Shown here: positions 10,728 to 53,300 of the stretch, one piece after another | Layout of the letters: each line of letters begins with the position of its first letter | Position numbering within the stretch: position 1 is the first letter of the stretch | Assembly (NCBI GenBank): GCA_030765065.1 | Contig: CM060979.1 | Location: forward strand, 18,691,001 to 18,755,000 | Direction of reading: 5' to 3' | Length of the DNA stretch: 64,000 nucleotides | From: Deroplatys truncata | Taxonomy: Eukaryota; Arthropoda; Insecta; Mantodea; Mantidae | Program-made: the position numbers and the translations under genes | The notes under the pieces: model-generated | What the model was told of the DNA's origin: nothing | What the model saw: the letters and a program-made list of their open reading frames with translations, nothing else | The model's database searches: none

Positions 10728-11122
10728 TGAGACAGTATTTTTAACACTTAAATGATTTCAGTCAAATTATATGGTATAAAATACAATAATCGCCCGCCTT
10801 AAAGCACTATGTGTATGTAACAATATATAAAAAGTTTATAAAATAGCCAATCAACAACCACAAAACAGCTTAAGTTGAATAAAAGTATTCTATTCGATTA
10901 GAAATAGCCAATCAGGGACTTGAAATACAGAAATTTACAAATTTAGGCGGTAGAAATCAAGTCAGTTGCTTATAGAAGCGCTCATAACTGGACGCGTTGG
11001 TTGTAGACAGTGTTCCTAACCGGACGCGAGATGTGTCCTCGAGAAGTTTAATACGTATTCAGTGTGAGATGAAAATAGTTTAGTGTTAAAAAGTGCAAAT
11101 AATTAACAAAAGAATCTCACAG

Positions 11123-11166
<44 letters not shown>

Positions 11167-11567
11167 CAGTGAAGTGTTATTTAAATAGTGTCAAGCATTA
11201 ATAAAAGGAGTGAAGTAAAAATTATAATCTGTGTAAGCCTACATTCTTAGCCGCACTACTCCCTGCAAAGAAATCCATGCCTCTAACAATAATACTGACG
11301 CAGCTGAGGCAAACATAAATATGTATTATTTAAAGAAACAGTCAAATTACAAAATTAATATTTTTTAAACATTTTGGGGCAAAGGCCACCGGAAAGTAGA
11401 TTTGGGGCGAAGGCTAGCGGAAACCTTTTACCATACGTGCGGGTGCAACTACTTCAAGTTCGGCTCCCCAACAGTCGAAATATATTACATAATACAACTC
11501 CTTCATACAACTAACAAACCTTCCCAACGCGTGGGGCAAATAACATTACAACAAAATAACTACTTCA
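10728..11567 (+). repeat. LTR family A, solo copy 1
   Basis: From TGAGACAGTATTTTTAACAC to ATAACTACTTCA, flanked by CAAT at 10724-10727 and 11568-11571. Plus-strand signals in order: tandem CCAAT boxes (ATAGCCAATC, twice), a conserved GGACGCGAG block, AATAAA (about 11201) and AGCCTACATTCTT. The 3' part holds the GCAAAGGCCACCGGAAAG and GTTCGGCTCCCCAACAGT blocks and one primer-site-like CCCAACGCGTGGGGC. A (CT)n(AT)n tract lies at 11122-11166. No coding sequence. Confidence 0.85.
11122..11166 (+). repeat. (CT)n(AT)n microsatellite in LTR-A
   Basis: About 12 CT units followed by about 10 AT units. Other LTR-A copies have only a short CTCTCTATATC here, so the tract expanded after insertion. Confidence 0.95.
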
Positions 11568-13829: not shown

Positions 13830-14844
13830 TGATGCAGTAATTTGTATCATAAATTATTTAAATGTAAAGAATGATTTTAGTATGAATATGCATTTTTGTG
13901 TGACATTGATTTGAGATGTTTGTTGATTGTAATTATTGTCGAGAAGTAAGTTTATACTGCCTTACTGAAACTGACAATAATAGCATGCAATAATGCAGCG
14001 AGGGGGTGAGCTGTTTATCATTATTGGAAACGAGGAAGTTACGTAATGTTGGCGCGTTTTTCTGTAGAAATTGCTGGAACATTTCCCTAGAGCATATGTA
14101 TTCATAATTTTCATTGGATATAAAAATAGACGCAAATGTTGGCGCGTTTTATTAGCCAATTGCAGCTCAGTTATAATCTTTAGGCATATCGGGGTGTATG
14201 AGTATAAGAGGGCTAGGTTAGAGATAGACCCCGTCAGTTCATCAAAAATATTTGTACACTACACATCGTCTTCCCGTCAGTTCGTCGAAAGTATTTGTAC
14301 GGCACAAGTCGGATATCAATTTGCAGGTTACGCGTAACAGAGTTATGAAAAATCTCAAGTGTTATAAAGTTAATTATACAAAAAGTTGAAGTACGCGAAT
14401 TAACAATTATCAGTAATGAAGTTATTATAACAGTTTCAGTTTGGCGAGTGTCTAGATCAATGTGTAAATGTGATAGTGACAGTGTTCGACAATAAAAGTG
14501 TAAAAGAAATTCTTTCATCAGTGTTATCTTTGGATAAAAGATTCCTTTCCGTTTACACAACCTGTATAAAGAGAAGAGCTCGACCCAAAAGGATAATAGC
14601 TAGCCGGAGGACAGTAAAAAAAAATTAAATAAAATAAAAGTAGCATTCTTTCAAACAAAAACTAATACTGCCGCAAATTGGTAACACCAGATGGAGCTAC
14701 AAAACTAACAAAGAATCACGTCACAAAATGGCTTCACCATGTTGAGTAAACACATACACAAATAACATTATAAATTTACCATCGCAAATTGGCTCCCAAA
14801 TGTGGGGCTAACAAATACAAACATAAACAAATAATGTTACTTCA
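13830..14844 (+). repeat. LTR family B, solo copy 1
   Basis: From TGATGCAGTAATTTG to ATGTTACTTCA, flanked by AATG at 13826-13829 and 14845-14848. Shared with copy 2 (57.7 kb): GATTTGAGATGTTTGTT, CGAGGGGGTGAG, TTTAGGCATATCGGGGTG, TCAGTGTTATCTTT and GCTAGCCGGAGGACA. AATAAAAGTG at about 14493 suits polyadenylation. The last 200 bp contains three AATTGG-type primer-site-like modules, the best being AATTGGCTCCCAAATGTGGG. The LTR lies inside an S4 SINE sequence. Confidence 0.82.
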
Positions 14845-15115: not shown

Positions 15116-15976
15116 TGAGGCAGTATTTTTAACACTTAAATGATTTCAGTCAAATTATATAATACATAAATTCAATAACAGCCCGTCTTAAAGCAATATG
15201 TGTATGTAATAATTTGTAAAATTTATGTAACAGTCATTGCATATGCTTATATTATTGTAAACATCTTCAATAATGTTATGTGAATGCATTACGTAATTTA
15301 ATAATGTAGGAGCTGCGAGGTAAAAGATTGCTAACAAAGAGGCAACAATGAGGAAACCTAGAGGCAATAATGAATTTGAAAGTTTAAATGCTACTAGTCA
15401 CCACTGGAGGAACAATAATGTAAATTTTAGACAGTTTAAAAATAGTCAATCAACAACTGAAAAGGAGAAACATTAATAAATTTAGAAGGCAGTTGCCAGC
15501 AGACAGTGATTGTAACCGGATGCGTGATGCTTCCTCGATAGATTTAATACGTATTTTGTGCGAGGCAAAAAAAAGTTTACGTGTTAAAAAGTGCAGCAAG
15601 TATTTAATAAAAACATCTCACAGCTCTCTCTCTCTCTCTATATCAGTGAAGTGTTATTTAAATCGTATCAAGCATTAATAAAAGGAGTGAAGTAAAATTA
15701 TAATCTGTGTAAGCCTACATTCTTGTCGCATCACGACCCTACTAAGAGAAACGTGTCTCTAACAATAATACTGACGCAGCCGAGGCAAACATAAATGTAT
15801 AATATTTAAAGAAACAGTCAAATTACAAAGTTAATATTTTTAAATTTGGGGCAAAGGCCACCTGAAGGAGCGAAGGCTACAGGAAACTGTTTACTATACA
15901 TGTGGTTGGAACTACTTCAAGTGTTCGGCTCCCCAACAGTTGAAATATAATACAACTCCTTCAATACAAACTACTT
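15116..15976 (+). repeat. LTR family A, copy 2
   Basis: Begins TGAGGCAGTATTTTTAACAC and carries all family A blocks, including AATAAAAGGAGTGAAG and TTCGGCTCCCCAACAGT. The right end stops at ACTACTT without CA, where a HINE-like fragment begins at its internal microsatellite, so the end was lost by recombination or deletion and no target duplication can be scored. Confidence 0.8.
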
Positions 15977-29576: not shown

Positions 29577-30111
29577 TGAGGCAGTATTTTTAACACTTAA
29601 ATGATTTCAGTCTAATTATATATAATATATTGTCGTAGCCTCTTTCTTTATATGCTCTAACTGATGGGGCAACTCGCTTGCAAAGATGTACCGGAAAATT
29701 AATCAATTTCTTACATGGCGAGGCTACGACGAGGGACGCAGCTAAAGAAAGTGCAGAAAATATTACTAATCAGAGACGTTACATGGCTTAAAGGAAGGAA
29801 AGGACTCTACCCTAACATAATTAAAACTTCAAGAGAATGGATGGTTCACAATTTAATAGATAAAGATAGATATCGTAGTGCTTACACTCTTAGCCCACAT
29901 GTCCACCGGGCGAGGCCGCATGGCTTGGCACGGAGAAGGCAGTTGCACGTCCTTACAGCTCGAAGGTCACCCCCTGACTCTCTGTCCCAAGTGACGCTAC
30001 TCAAAGCGTCAGGGAAGCCAAACAAACTCATCCCCTCCTAAACTCCAACTGCCATCTCAAATCCCGGTGACCAGAGAGACGTATGTCCTATAATCTCTGC
30101 ATAGTCACAAA

Positions 30112-30142
<31 letters not shown>

Positions 30143-30976
30143 AACAGCCCGCCTTAAAGCAATATGTATATCTAACAATATATAAAAAGTGTATATTACA
30201 GTCATTGTATATGTTTATATTATTGCATACATGTGGAATAATGTCATGTGAATGTATTACGTAATTTAATAATTAAGGAGCTGTGAGAATAATAGGTTAA
30301 AGGTTGCCAACAATGAGGTAATAATGAGGTAACCTTGAGGCAATAATGAATTTGAAAGTTTAACAATACTACTTGTGATTCTTAGAAGCAATAATGTAAA
30401 TTTTGAGACAGTTTATAAAATACCCAATCAACAACCAGACTTGAAATACAGAAATTTACAAATTTAGGCGGTTTACAAATCAAGTCAGTTGGTTGTAGAC
30501 AGTGTTCCTAACCGGACGTGAGATGTGTTCTCGAGAAATTTAACACGTATTTTGTGTGAGGAAATAGTTTACGTGTTTAAAAAGTGCAAGTATTTAATAA
30601 AAGAATCTTACAGCTCTCTATATCCGTGAAGTGTTATTTAAATCGTGTCAAGTATTAATATAAAGGAGTGAATAAAAAATTAAAATCTGTGTAAGCCTAC
30701 ATTCTTCAGCCGCACCACACCTTGCAAAGAAATCCATGTCTCTAACAATAAATAGTGACGCAGCCGAAGCAAACACAAATATATAATATTTAAAGAAACA
30801 GTCAAATTACAAAGTTAATATTTTTAAGTTCGGCTCCCCAACAGTTGAACTACAATACAACTCCTACTTCAAATTGGCTTTCCATACGTGAAGCAACAAC
30901 CTACTTCAAATTGGCTGCCAAAGCGTGGGGCAAAATAACAACGTAAAAATAACAATACAACAAAATAACTACTTCA
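29577..30976 (+). repeat. LTR family A, copy 3 (interrupted)
   Basis: From TGAGGCAGTATTTTTAACAC to AACTACTTCA; flanks ATGC (29573-29576) and ATGT (30977-30980), an imperfect 4-bp duplication. Unrelated DNA (29631 to about 30113) interrupts it at the AT-rich segment 50 bp from its start. Two primer-site-like modules occur near the 3' end, the best reading AATTGGCTGCCAAAGCGTGG. Confidence 0.82.
29631..30113. other. about 480-bp insertion in LTR-A, unidentified
   Basis: It starts TGTCGTAGCCTC and ends near CACAAA before an (AT)n tract. GTCGTAGCCTC (29632-29642) and GAGGCTACGAC (29720-29730) are a perfect 11-bp inverted pair. A 108-codon frame (29715-30041) starts on the second arm; I do not recognise it. 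Confidence 0.5.
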
Positions 30977-31079: not shown

Positions 31080-31379
31080 CATTCTTCTATTTACTTCTTG
31101 TTAAAAAATAAATCCACTTTACACATTTCGTTGTAGCTATAAGAAGAATACAATAAGCTAAAGCGATACTCAAATCTACTCAAAGCTGGTCGCTGTGTGA
31201 TGTCTTTGAAATTCTGTTCTCTGTACATGAACATGAAAGGAAAGGTAAAGAGGAAAAATGATAGCGATCTGTATTTAGTGAAGTATAAGTATTTGAAAAT
31301 TTAAGGCAATAACAAATAATATCTCAAAATGGTTGAGGCAGTATTTCTAACACTAAAATGATTTCAGTCTAATTGTATA

Positions 31380-31427
<48 letters not shown>

Positions 31428-32490
31428 CAATAACAGCCCCCCTTAAAGCAATATGTGTATGTAACAATATATAAAAAATGTATGTAACAGTCATTGTATA
31501 TGTTTGTATTATTGTATTCATGTGTAATAATGTTATATGAATGTATTACGTAATATAATAATGTAGAAGCTGTGAGAATAATAGGTTAAAAGTTGCTAAC
31601 AATGAGGTAACATTGAGGCAATAATGAGTTTGAAAGTTTAAATGCTACTAGTCATTATTGGAGCAACAATAATGTACATTTTGAGACAGTTTAAAAATAC
31701 CCAATCAACAACCAGAAAAAGCTTCAGTTAAAGAAGGTATTCTATCGGATTAGGAATAGCCAATCAGAGACTTGAAATACAGAAATTTACAAGTTTAGCG
31801 GTTGAAATCAATTCAGTTGCCTGCAAACAGTGTTCTTAACCGGACGCGAGGCACGTCCTCGAGAAGTATAATACGTATTCGTGTGAGACGAAAATAGTTT
31901 ACGTATTAAAAAGTGCAAGTATTTAATAAAAACATCTCACAGCTCTCCCTCTATATCAGTTAAGTGTTATTTAAATCGTATCAAGTATTAATAAAAGGAG
32001 TGAAGTCAAATTATAATCTGTGTAAGCCTACATTCTTACTCGCACCACTATCCTGCTAAGAGAAACGTGTCTCTAACCATAATACTGACGCTGCCAAGGC
32101 AAACATAAATATTAAATATTTAAAGAAACAGTCAAATTGCAAAGTTAATATTTTTAAAAATTGGGGCAAAGGTTACCGGGTACCATACGTGCGGTTGCAA
32201 CTACTTCAAGTTCGGCTCCCCAACAGTTGAACTACAATACAACACCACAATAAAATAAAACTTCTTCATGGTTAACTCCACAATTGCTTTGACATAATTG
32301 TATACTTTAATGAAATCCACATTTTTGTGTCGTAGATTACGTCTCTCTCTTACTATTTACCAGTTGCACAAAAGTCGTTTAGAATGAAGAGTACTTCTCA
32401 TGTTATTCCCAGAAAATTCAAGATATACATTTTAAATGTCATGCAAATATCTTAAACAATGGCATTCTAATCAAAATTTCCACAGGTATT
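31080..32490 (+). mobile_element. old HINE-like repeat split by LTR-A
   Basis: Segments 31080-31333 and 32269-32490 are consecutive plus-strand parts of a diverged copy (ATAATATCTCAAAATGGT | TGGTTAACTCCACAATTGC), with TGGT duplicated around the LTR. Confidence 0.75.
31334..32268 (+). repeat. LTR family A, copy 4, solo with 4-bp duplication
   Basis: From TGAGGCAGTATTTCTAACAC to AAAACTTCTTCA, flanked by TGGT at 31330-31333 and 32269-32272. The uninterrupted host is known from other HINE-like copies, so both ends are certain; this copy fixes the LTR boundaries for the family. It carries an (AT)n expansion at 31384-31421. Confidence 0.92.
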
Positions 32491-42742: not shown

Positions 42743-42785
42743 ATTTAGGTTTTTCTTTACAAACATTAAACTCACACACCAATTT

Positions 42786-43873
42786 TGAGGCAGTATTTTT
42801 AACACTTAAATGATTTCACTCTAATTGTATAATATATAAATTCAATAACAGCCCGCCTTAAAGCAAATAGTGTATGTAACAATATATAAAAAGTGTATAT
42901 TACAGTCATTGTAAATGTTTATATTATTGTATCCATGTGTAATAATGTTATGTGAATGTATTATGTAATTTAATAATGTAGGAGCTGTGAGAATAATAAG
43001 TTAAAAGTTGGTAACAATGAGGTAACCTTGAGGCAATAATGAGTTTGAGAGTTTAACATTACTACTTCTGATTCTTGGAAGCAATAATGTGAATTTACTG
43101 ACAGTTTATAAAATAGCCAATCAACAATCAGAAAACGAAGGTTAAATGAAGGTATTCTATTGGACTAGGATTAGCCAACCAGAAATTAAAAACGAGACAA
43201 ATTTACAAATTTAGAAGTCAGTTGGTTGCAGACAGCGTTACTAACCAGACGCAAAAAGTGTCCTCAAGAAATTTAATATGTATTCGTGTGAGACGAAAAA
43301 TAAATTTACGTGTTAAAAAAGTGTAGTTAATTAATAAAAAGAATCTCACAGCTCTCTATATCAGTGAAGTGTTATTTAAATCGTATCAAGTATTAATAAA
43401 AGGAGTGAAGTAAAATTATAATCTGTATAAGCGTACATTCTTGTCGCATCACAACCCTGCTAAGAGAAACGTGTCTCTAACAATACTTCTGACGCAGCCG
43501 AGGCAAACATAAATATTAAATATTTAAAGAAACAGTCTAATTACAAAGCTAATATTTAAAAAAAAAAACTTGGGACAAAGGCCACCTGAAAGTACATTTG
43601 AGGCGAAGGCTACCTGAAACTGTTTACTATACTGCGGCGGTTGCAACTATTACATGTTCGGCTTCCCAACAGTTGAACTATAATACAGCTCCTTCAATAC
43701 AAACTACTTCAAATTGACGCCCAAAGCGTGCTGCAAACAAGATAATATTTTTTTAAATTTGGGACAAATAACGTAAAACAATCATCTTCAATTTGGTGCC
43801 CAAAACGTGGGGCTAATAAATAACATTTCTCGAATTGACGCCCAAAACGTGAAGAAGCAAACCATCTTTCTCA
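42786..43873 (+). repeat. LTR family A, copy 5, solo, longest
   Basis: 1088 bp from TGAGGCAGTATTTTTAACAC to ATCTTTCTCA, flanked by ATTT at 42782-42785 and 43874-43877. The last 170 bp holds three primer-site-like modules: AATTGACGCCCAAAGCGTG, ATTTGGTGCCCAAAACGTGG and GAATTGACGCCCAAAACGTG, each preceded by TTCA or TCTC. Confidence 0.9.
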
Positions 43874-43877
43874 ATTT

Positions 43878-49983: not shown

Positions 49984-50938
49984 TGAGTAAGTATTTTAAC
50001 ACTTAAATGATTTCAGTCTAATTAAATAATATATAATTCAATAACAGCCCGCCTTAAAGCAACATGTGTATGTAACAATATATAAAAAGTGTATATTACA
50101 GTCATTGTATATGTTTATATTATTGTATACATGTTCAATAATATTATGTGAATGTATTACGTAATTTAATAATGTAGGAGCTGTGAGAATAATAGGTTAA
50201 AAGTTGCTAACAATGAGATAACAATGAGGTAACCTTGAGGCAATAATGAATTTGAAAGTTTAACAATAGTACTTTTAATTCTTGGAAAACAATAATGTAA
50301 TTTTTATGACAGTTTATAAAATAGCCAAATAGCTTTAGTTAAATGAAGGTATTTTATTGGACTAAGATTAGCCAATCAGAAACATAAATGGAGCAAAATT
50401 TACAAATTTAGAAGTCAGTTGCTTGTGGACAGTGTTCCTAACCGGACGCGAGATGTGTCCTCGAGAAATTTAATACGTATTCGTGTGAGACGAAAATAGT
50501 TTTATGTGTTAAAAAGTGCAAGTATTTAATAAAAAACAAATCTCACAGCTCTCTCTATATCAGTGAAGTGTTATTTAAATCGTGTCAAGCACTAATAAAA
50601 GGAGTGAAGTAAAATTATAATCTGTTTAAGCCTACATTCTTCAGTCGCACCACTCCCTGCTAAGACATTCATGTCTCTAGAAAAAATATAAATACTGACG
50701 CAGCCGAGGCAACATAAATATATAATATTTAACGAAGCAGTCAAATTACAAAGTTAATATTTTTTAAACATTTGGGGCGAAGGCTACCGGAAACTTTTTA
50801 CCATACGTGCGGTTGCAACTACTTCAAGTTCGGCTCCCCAACAGTCGAAATATTATACAAAACAAAAATAGCGGTTCTTCAAATTTGGTTCCCAAAGCGT
50901 GGTGCTAAAAATAACGTAATAAATAATATACTACTTCA
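49984..50938 (+). repeat. LTR family A, copy 6, solo
   Basis: From TGAGTAAGTATTTTAACAC to ATACTACTTCA, flanked by CTGC at 49980-49983 and 50939-50942. One primer-site-like module (AATTTGGTTCCCAAAGCGTG) preceded by CTTCA. Confidence 0.88.
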
Positions 50939-52319: not shown

Positions 52320-53300
52320 TGAGGTAGTATTTTTATTCACTTAAATGATATCAGTCTAATAATATAATATAACATATAATAACAGCCCGCCTTAAAGCAA
52401 TGTGTATATAATATAACATATAAAGTTAATGTAACAGTCATTGTATTATGTTTATTTTATTATGTATATGTACAATAATGTTATGTGAATGTGTTACGTA
52501 GTTTAACAATGTAGGAGCTGTGAGAATAGAAGCAAGCTGCTCTTCGTAGCAAACAAAATTACAAAGTAGAAGCTGAAAGTTGCTAACAATAAGGTAACCT
52601 TGAGACAACAATAAATTAGAACGTTTAAAAAGGCTACTAATAGTTCTTGGAACAATAATAATGTAATATTTAAAACAGTTTAAAAATAGCCAATCAAAAA
52701 ACTAGAGACGCTAAAAGTTAAATAAAGGTATTCTATTGGAGTAGGATTAGCCAATCAGAAACTAGAAATAGAGAAATGTACAAATTCGAACGACAGACGC
52801 TACAAGAAAGCGTACCCAAGTAGTTCGGTTCGGTACGGGTCAATGATTCTATTCTCATTGCGGTGAGAATAATATAAAGTTTAACTGTTAAAAGTGTAAT
52901 TAACAATAATCTCGCGGCTGTATAGTAGGATACATCAGTGAAGTGTTATTTAAACGTGTGAAGAACTAATAAAAAAGGTAAAATACAATTATAATTTGTA
53001 TAAGCCTTATTCTTTAGCCTTACCAGCCCTGTTAAGAGATACGTGCTCTACAAAATACTACTAACGAAGCCGAGGCATATATAATATTTAAATAAATAAC
53101 ATAAAAATAGTTATTACACATAAAGTAAACGTGGGGCGAAGGCCACCGGAAAGTTTGTACCGTACGTGGGACGAACACTCCTAGAAACGTATCTCCCGCA
53201 AGTTTGGTGCCCAAACGTGGCTCAACTCCTTGCTTCAAATTGTCTCATCAACGTGGGGGCTACACCTCCTTCAAATTGGTGCCTATACGTGGTGCAGCCG
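52320..53300 (+). repeat. LTR family A, copy 7, diverged, right end unresolved
   Basis: Starts TGAGGTAGTATTTTTATTCA; family blocks throughout are more diverged than in other copies. The array of primer-site-like modules runs past 53250 (GTTTGGTGCCCAAACGTGG; AATTGGTGCCTATACGTGG). ACGT flanks the start (52316-52319) and recurs at 53251-53254, but ACGT is part of the module itself, so this is not safe evidence for the end. Confidence 0.7.

Follow-up and report, generated by a model that had tools for sequence, protein, structure and literature searches.

Tandem tRNA-Lys primer-binding sites at the LTR/leader boundary of Ty3/gypsy retrotransposons of Deroplatys truncata and their probable role in setting the LTR end

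The Ty3/gypsy elements described here carry a ladder of tandem primer-binding sites, any usable one of which probably sets the 3′ end of the LTR. Each repeating unit has an LTR-end motif, in most cases TCA or CGCA, separated by a gap of 3 nt from a tRNA-Lys site, to which an A-rich spacer is joined, and such units stand in tandem at the LTR/leader boundary. Under the proposed mechanism any usable unit could start reverse transcription and the chosen unit would set the LTR 3′ end; units upstream of it would join the LTR and decay there as fossils, those downstream would remain in the leader as spares, and duplication and recombination among similar units would lead to their gain, loss and shuffling. 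With a confidence only slightly better than even, we further propose that these LTRs have no fixed 3′ end, in that a heritable ladder of interchangeable sites resets the U5/leader boundary up or down at each round, that LTR length switches slowly as a result, and that the spares safeguard an element whose primer site is lost. Both the length and the ends of an LTR are commonly held fixed within a family. Here they vary by whole units and with an evident cause, which makes these elements a natural system for studying the choice among several primer sites and the reason for the very long LTRs of some lineages. Annotation is affected as well, as software expecting a single primer site after the LTR, or LTRs of equal length, could misplace many ends in this genome.

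The solo LTR at 42786..43873 and other copies in the window

The window, a stretch of 64,000 nucleotides of contig CM060979.1, contains on its + strand a family A solo LTR of 1088 bp (42786..43873; TGAGGCAG...TTTCTCA), flanked by a 4-bp target-site duplication, ATTT, whose left and right copies (no strand assigned) lie at 42782..42785 and 43874..43877. Three LTR-embedded primer-site modules precede its 3′ end on the same strand: module 1, TTGACGCCCAAAGCGTGCTGC, at 43714..43734, similar to one found in many family A copies; module 2, TTGGTGCCCAAAACGTGGGGC, at 43793..43813; and module 3, TTGACGCCCAAAACGTGAAGA, at 43835..43855. Relative to the nearest of three module forms they show 4, 0 and 4 mismatches, respectively, and two of the three are immediately preceded by CA. 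A second fit of the duplication, at 43790, is due to the following module, which by chance starts with ATTT. The preliminary description of modules near the LTR 3′ end together with a 4-bp duplication is thus borne out at this LTR, and second modules within the LTR were seen in other copies (L004, L040, L061 and L066).

A scan of the window for the site at up to 6 mismatches gave 15 matches on the + strand, as compared to 2-7 for that strand in each of 20 shuffles, and 5 matches on the − strand; when CA was required just 5′ of the site, 8 matches were found on the + strand versus 0-2 in the shuffles, and at up to 3 mismatches there were 5 versus an expected 0.21. Duplications had been claimed for several copies in the window, and among the eight examined they were perfect in five, those starting at 10728, 13830, 31334, 42786 and 49984, the other three copies starting at 29577, 15116 and 52320; for both 13830 and 42786 the duplication fits a second position too. 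All of the following lie on the + strand. The family A LTR at 10728..11567 has the duplication CAAT, the end CTACTTCA and, by eye, one degenerate module near that end. A family B LTR at 13830..14844 starts with TGATGCAG, has the duplication AATG (which also fits at 14798) and a module at 14789-14808. Family A LTRs were further found at 31334..32268 (duplication TGGT, end CTTCTTCA, no clear module) and at 49984..50938 (duplication CTGC, one module at 50885-50905). A family A LTR at 29577..30975, its end approximate, is apparently interrupted and carries modules near its end, including one at 30911-30931, its duplication being one mismatch off (ATGC/ATGT). The copy at 15116 is truncated. Three modules (53204, 53240 and 53276) at 53204..53295 lie in the tail, with a putative end, of a diverged LTR starting at 52320, to which no duplication was assigned.

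The primer tRNA and the site at which the LTR ends

The search for the primer tRNA covered the 4.29-Gb genome of this single species. Host tRNA-Lys genes end in GGTTCGAGCCCCACGTTGGGCG; a pattern that also admitted the extra bases of the family A modules matched 145 places, and all 100 of the 3′ ends among the matches listed have the normal form with no extra base. ARAGORN assigned four genes in one stretch (L081) to tRNA-Lys(CTT) and called no tRNA gene in a second stretch (L080), so that the tRNA identity rests on L081. Many of these genes, of which L081 is a sample, lie about 144 bp apart in a large tandem tRNA-Lys(CTT) cluster at G000:C9 ~191136768-191183788, which holds 91 of the 100 3′ ends among the matches listed (of 145). 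From the ends of these genes the expected primer site is TGGCGCCCAACGTGGGG, exactly as had been proposed for tRNA-Lys(CUU). The module as originally written is likewise of the tRNA-Lys type, yet it has two extra A's as compared to the tRNA complement, and modules of that form are therefore not perfect primer sites. Across the whole genome, TTGGYGCCCAAAACGTGG was counted 627 times (once for the reversed control), and the exact tRNA-Lys form TTGGCGCCCAACGTGGGGC, a 19-mer holding the expected site, 4866 times (reversed control 0).

Thirteen two-LTR elements of two related families, 11 of them family B with LTRs of 970-1333 bp, have perfect 4-bp duplications and constitute the verified set. They come from 15 pairs with both LTR ends, five collected first and then ten of family B, eight of which were verified; L094/L095 and L096/L097, in which the start of the 5′ LTR is altered or truncated, were left out; in both, the site at the LTR end is exact. 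L024 and L025 belong to the same element, L102/L103 stands outside the set as it has no LTR start, the edge of L010/L011 was taken on the 5′ LTR, and the LTR-end strings of the set were entered by hand. All 13 have LTRs of the form TG...CA in the Ty3/gypsy manner, the 4-bp duplication and, 3-4 nt beyond the closing CA, a site of the Lys type. By its own terms the preliminary description would have been contradicted by 5′ LTRs that stop ahead of the first module or by a primer unrelated to tRNA-Lys; the edge site is of the Lys type throughout, and nine of the 13 elements hold sites of up to 5 edits within the LTR, 22 in total, three of them exact. The edge site is exact in 10 elements and differs by 1 edit in L078, 2 in L022 and 4 in L070. 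A further site, exact in three cases, was found in the leader stretch examined of 7 of the 13 elements, that stretch measuring only about 130-150 nt for L086, L088, L090 and L092. Since 12 of the 13 were found by a search for the exact site, the exception being L070/L071, the exact share is inflated and fractions of this set are not genome estimates.

Both spare and buried exact sites were observed. In L015, L025 and L037 the LTR stops short of two exact sites, the second of them placed in the leader, while in L022, L076 and L078 the LTR encloses an exact site and its edge lies at a later site. The latter three have several LTR-internal sites, one of them exact in each, and LTRs that are 99.7% (L022/L023, duplication CCTT), 99.5% (L076/L077, TTAC) and 97.9% (L078/L079, ATAA) alike. 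In L010/L011, of the family A type, the LTRs are 97.6% alike (TACA), and the element has an exact Lys site and, in the leader, a second, non-exact one; in the 3′ LTR an exact site is succeeded by one more copy of the module before it, so that the two LTRs end unalike. The LTRs of L070/L071, 94.5% alike (AATT), end before one degraded site and another is kept in the leader. In standard retroelement replication the position of tRNA priming defines the 3′ edge of the LTR, and the differing edges of L015, L025 and L037 on the one hand and of L022, L076 and L078 on the other therefore point to a choice of site, with tRNA priming at the chosen unit expected to fix the LTR end.

The edge site is nearer to the tRNA than the other sites of its element (permutation p 0.0007, a value weakened by the exact-site selection), and decay grows upstream (p 0.0016 for 11 loci; 0.017 for 6 loci with the leader-adjacent site excluded). 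Such decay, together with the exact sites buried in the LTRs of the young elements L022, L076 and L078, would also be expected if, as first suggested, the site moved outward repeatedly, old end and site being swallowed each time and LTRs only growing. It is very unlikely that this one-way growth accounts for the elements, as the edge is marked by a site upstream of another in 7 of the 13 and as L015, L025 and L037 keep a spare exact site in the leader. The notion of fossil primer sites in LTRs hence survives, and that of steady outward growth is not supported.

What counts against a ladder of selectable sites is that three elements (L078, L022 and L070) used an inexact edge site and that the non-exact site TGGCGCCACCAACG recurs (L017, L022 and L102) with no host tRNA to match it, a genome search giving 0 matches. 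For that reason a second primer tRNA for TGGCGCCACCAACG was dropped from the account. Four elements were picked regardless of primer site; L098 and L100 fell short of the 5′ junction, and the two that reached it, L102 and L104, both without left flank, are non-exact at the edge. Family A elements were picked by polypurine tract, and two of the three (L072 and L074) had no 5′ LTR in the stretch examined. Ty3 strictly inherits its primer site according to the part of PMC7472051 available, and such inheritance could explain how non-exact LTR-edge sites recur in the absence of a matching tRNA gene. A non-exact site with two extra bases, TGGCGCCACCAACGTGGGG, adjoins the leader in L017, L022 and L102 and has no matching host tRNA, and related forms were noted in L018, L096 and L104.

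Unit number, spacers and turnover

Family A LTRs were followed in several samples. Of 45 LTR rows, drawn from the loci then collected and from the window (two loci, one of them the window copy, appear twice), 21 show T[TCA]CA at 850-2000 bp with the 4-bp flank of the copy directly behind it. Some of these are chance matches; 200 shuffles of the flanks gave 6.4 on average and 13 at most. The tails of 90 LTR starts held 71 sites at up to 3 edits, a count inflated by the many loci chosen by exact site, as compared to 1 in the first 600 bp and 0 in shuffled tails. Thirty loci were picked by LTR similarity (L039-L068, L039 being the window copy at 42786-43873); a plausible end with duplication was present at 921-1088 bp in 19 and, in a separate scan, in two more (L047 and L059), while the remaining nine gave no plausible end with duplication, the end of L054 being implausible. 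Tails were listed for 25 copies chosen for a matching flank, with L008 ambiguous and L039 and L050 each fitting two ends, and with L008 set aside the LTR ends in TCA in 19 of 24, in TACA in 4 and in GCA in 1.

No module precedes the LTR end in L051 and L055, one does in, for example, L043, L045, L047 and L059, two in L004, L040, L057, L061 and L066, among others, and three in L031 and L039. At the far extreme L005 (G000:C1:45527131-45530148, duplication GACA) has 19 modules in a 1779-bp LTR, the array including a 45-bp unit repeated 16.6 times, over which a higher-order period of 357 bp is laid. Family A copies accordingly carry 0 to 19 modules rather than the one to three first reported, and the measured spacing of about 45-100 bp replaces the steps of 45-60 bp given earlier; LTR length in copies with matching flanks is 921-1779 bp. 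In a tree built from the first 840 bp of the LTR, with good support for just 6 of its 24 inner branches, module number is scattered: close copies differ (L064 has one and L066 two; L041 has one and L051 none), and the first-splitting pair, L004 and L031, already has 2-3 modules, which further disfavours growth in one direction.

Modules embedded in LTRs might instead be retained for some other role, such as soaking up tRNA fragments that block the primer site. Primer sites are reported to be targets of tRNA fragments (PMC7472051), and in 13 of 86 clusters, built from the first 100 matches listed, a span of 250 bp holds at least 2 exact sites of the same strand. Upstream modules nevertheless decay and several copies have none or only one, and we regard this role as highly improbable.

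The movement of units was traced through their spacers. For 5 of the 7 elements with an extra site in the leader (L015, L025, L037, L088 and L092; L010 and L070 were left out) the leader spacer was compared to other LTRs. That of L015 lies in the verified LTR of L022 with 36 of 36 aligned bases identical; that of L088 matches 44 of 47 bases in L090 and 42 of 47 in L076, where it ends exactly at the LTR 3′ end; and that of L025 matches 36 of 42 in L076 and 35 of 42 at the very end of the L090 LTR. Matches of the L037 and L092 leader spacers to other LTRs were no better than shuffles. With three of the five recurring inside the LTRs of others, some modules therefore belong to the leader of one element and to the LTR of another. 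Spacers were parsed in 13 of 14 loci (L027 lacked a leader match), an exact site in L009 being missed by the parsing and visible in the spacer; similar spacer pairs numbered 47 of 435 versus 2 of 8700 in shuffled sequence, and both their orders and the neighbouring site variants differ.

Changes are also seen within single elements. A two-module block is duplicated in L022, the 5′ LTR of L086/L087 is about 111 bp longer owing to a duplication, the LTRs of L088/L089 differ by 11 bp near the tail, and the tails of L104/L105 differ as well, if both belong to one element. With tails unequal within three or four elements, some boundary differences may postdate insertion. Arrays arise partly by plain tandem duplication, as in L005 and L022, and we infer that unit number is altered by template switching as reverse transcription proceeds or by unequal exchange at the DNA level, both of which fit the changes seen.

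The L005 array with its higher-order repeat, the repeated block in L022 and the near-tail differences in L010/L011, L086/L087 and L088/L089 are likewise what would be seen if the tails were plain minisatellites, resized by chromosomal slippage or unequal exchange, with the boundary following passively and no alternative priming. That process accounts for the numbers of units but not for duplication-verified LTR ends at differing units with intact spares in the leader, and is as a complete explanation quite unlikely; alongside a ladder of selectable primer sites it fits well, and it may supply the units. At G000:C1:9533391 and 9536117 (L013/L014) an LTR with its leader is repeated in tandem at a distance of 2.7 kb, the two copies being 99.96% identical; a polypurine tract precedes the second LTR, and the arrangement is probably an LTR-internal-LTR-internal chain.

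Element type and relation to known systems

Between the LTRs L010 and L011, the internal region L069 encodes RVT_1, RNaseH, Integrase_H2C2 and rve in Ty3/gypsy order, with rve below its cut-off and the frame broken, in one element of the L010/L011 type, outside family B. A purine-rich tract precedes the 3′ LTR, AAAGGGGG in the A type and AGTGGGG in the B type. Judged by the pol order of L069, the LTR ends, the duplication and the tracts, the elements are Ty3/gypsy (Metaviridae), and the tRNA-Lys primer, the LTRs of ~1-2 kb and the 4-bp duplication make the Osvaldo lineage a likely fitting label.

Tandem, duplicated or multiple primer sites had no earlier description in the literature searched, which included the Osvaldo and Woot elements and LTR length. 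Retroviral vectors have reportedly been built with two primer sites, either of which can start reverse transcription. Such vectors are artificial and have two sites only, whereas the arrays described here are natural, inherited and often longer.

Among known elements the Osvaldo-lineage cqgypsy families of Culex are alike in their tRNA-Lys primer, long LTRs (997-2055 bp) and mostly 4-bp duplications, and unlike in that no tandem or LTR-internal sites are described in the part of the source available (PMC3286476). For three mosquito elements 29-30 nt are reported to be unusually conserved across the LTR/primer-site boundary (PMC3286476); in the elements described here a boundary motif recurs. 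One Culex element has a tRNA pair inserted at the boundary, as opposed to an array of sites, according to the same partial source (PMC3286476). As for mouse ETn, MusD and IAP, non-exact sites are common in successful copies, a point of likeness to the present elements, and multiple or tandem sites were not found in the available part of that account (PMC7472051). The available parts of PMC3601003, PMC4580426 and PMC3212995 had no bearing on tandem primer sites.

Family B is abundant, with 5057 3′ junctions at up to 1 mismatch (control 0). The first 94 of the 100 junctions listed gave 35 pairings with a listed exact site lying 1.5-9 kb upstream, 31 of which span only 1.7-2.5 kb, and it is likely that many family B copies on G000:C1 are internally shortened and form a large non-autonomous group. 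By eye, the 3′ flanks of L099, L101, L103 and L105, the four 3′ LTR stretches chosen irrespective of the primer site, enter tandem satellite-like repeats.
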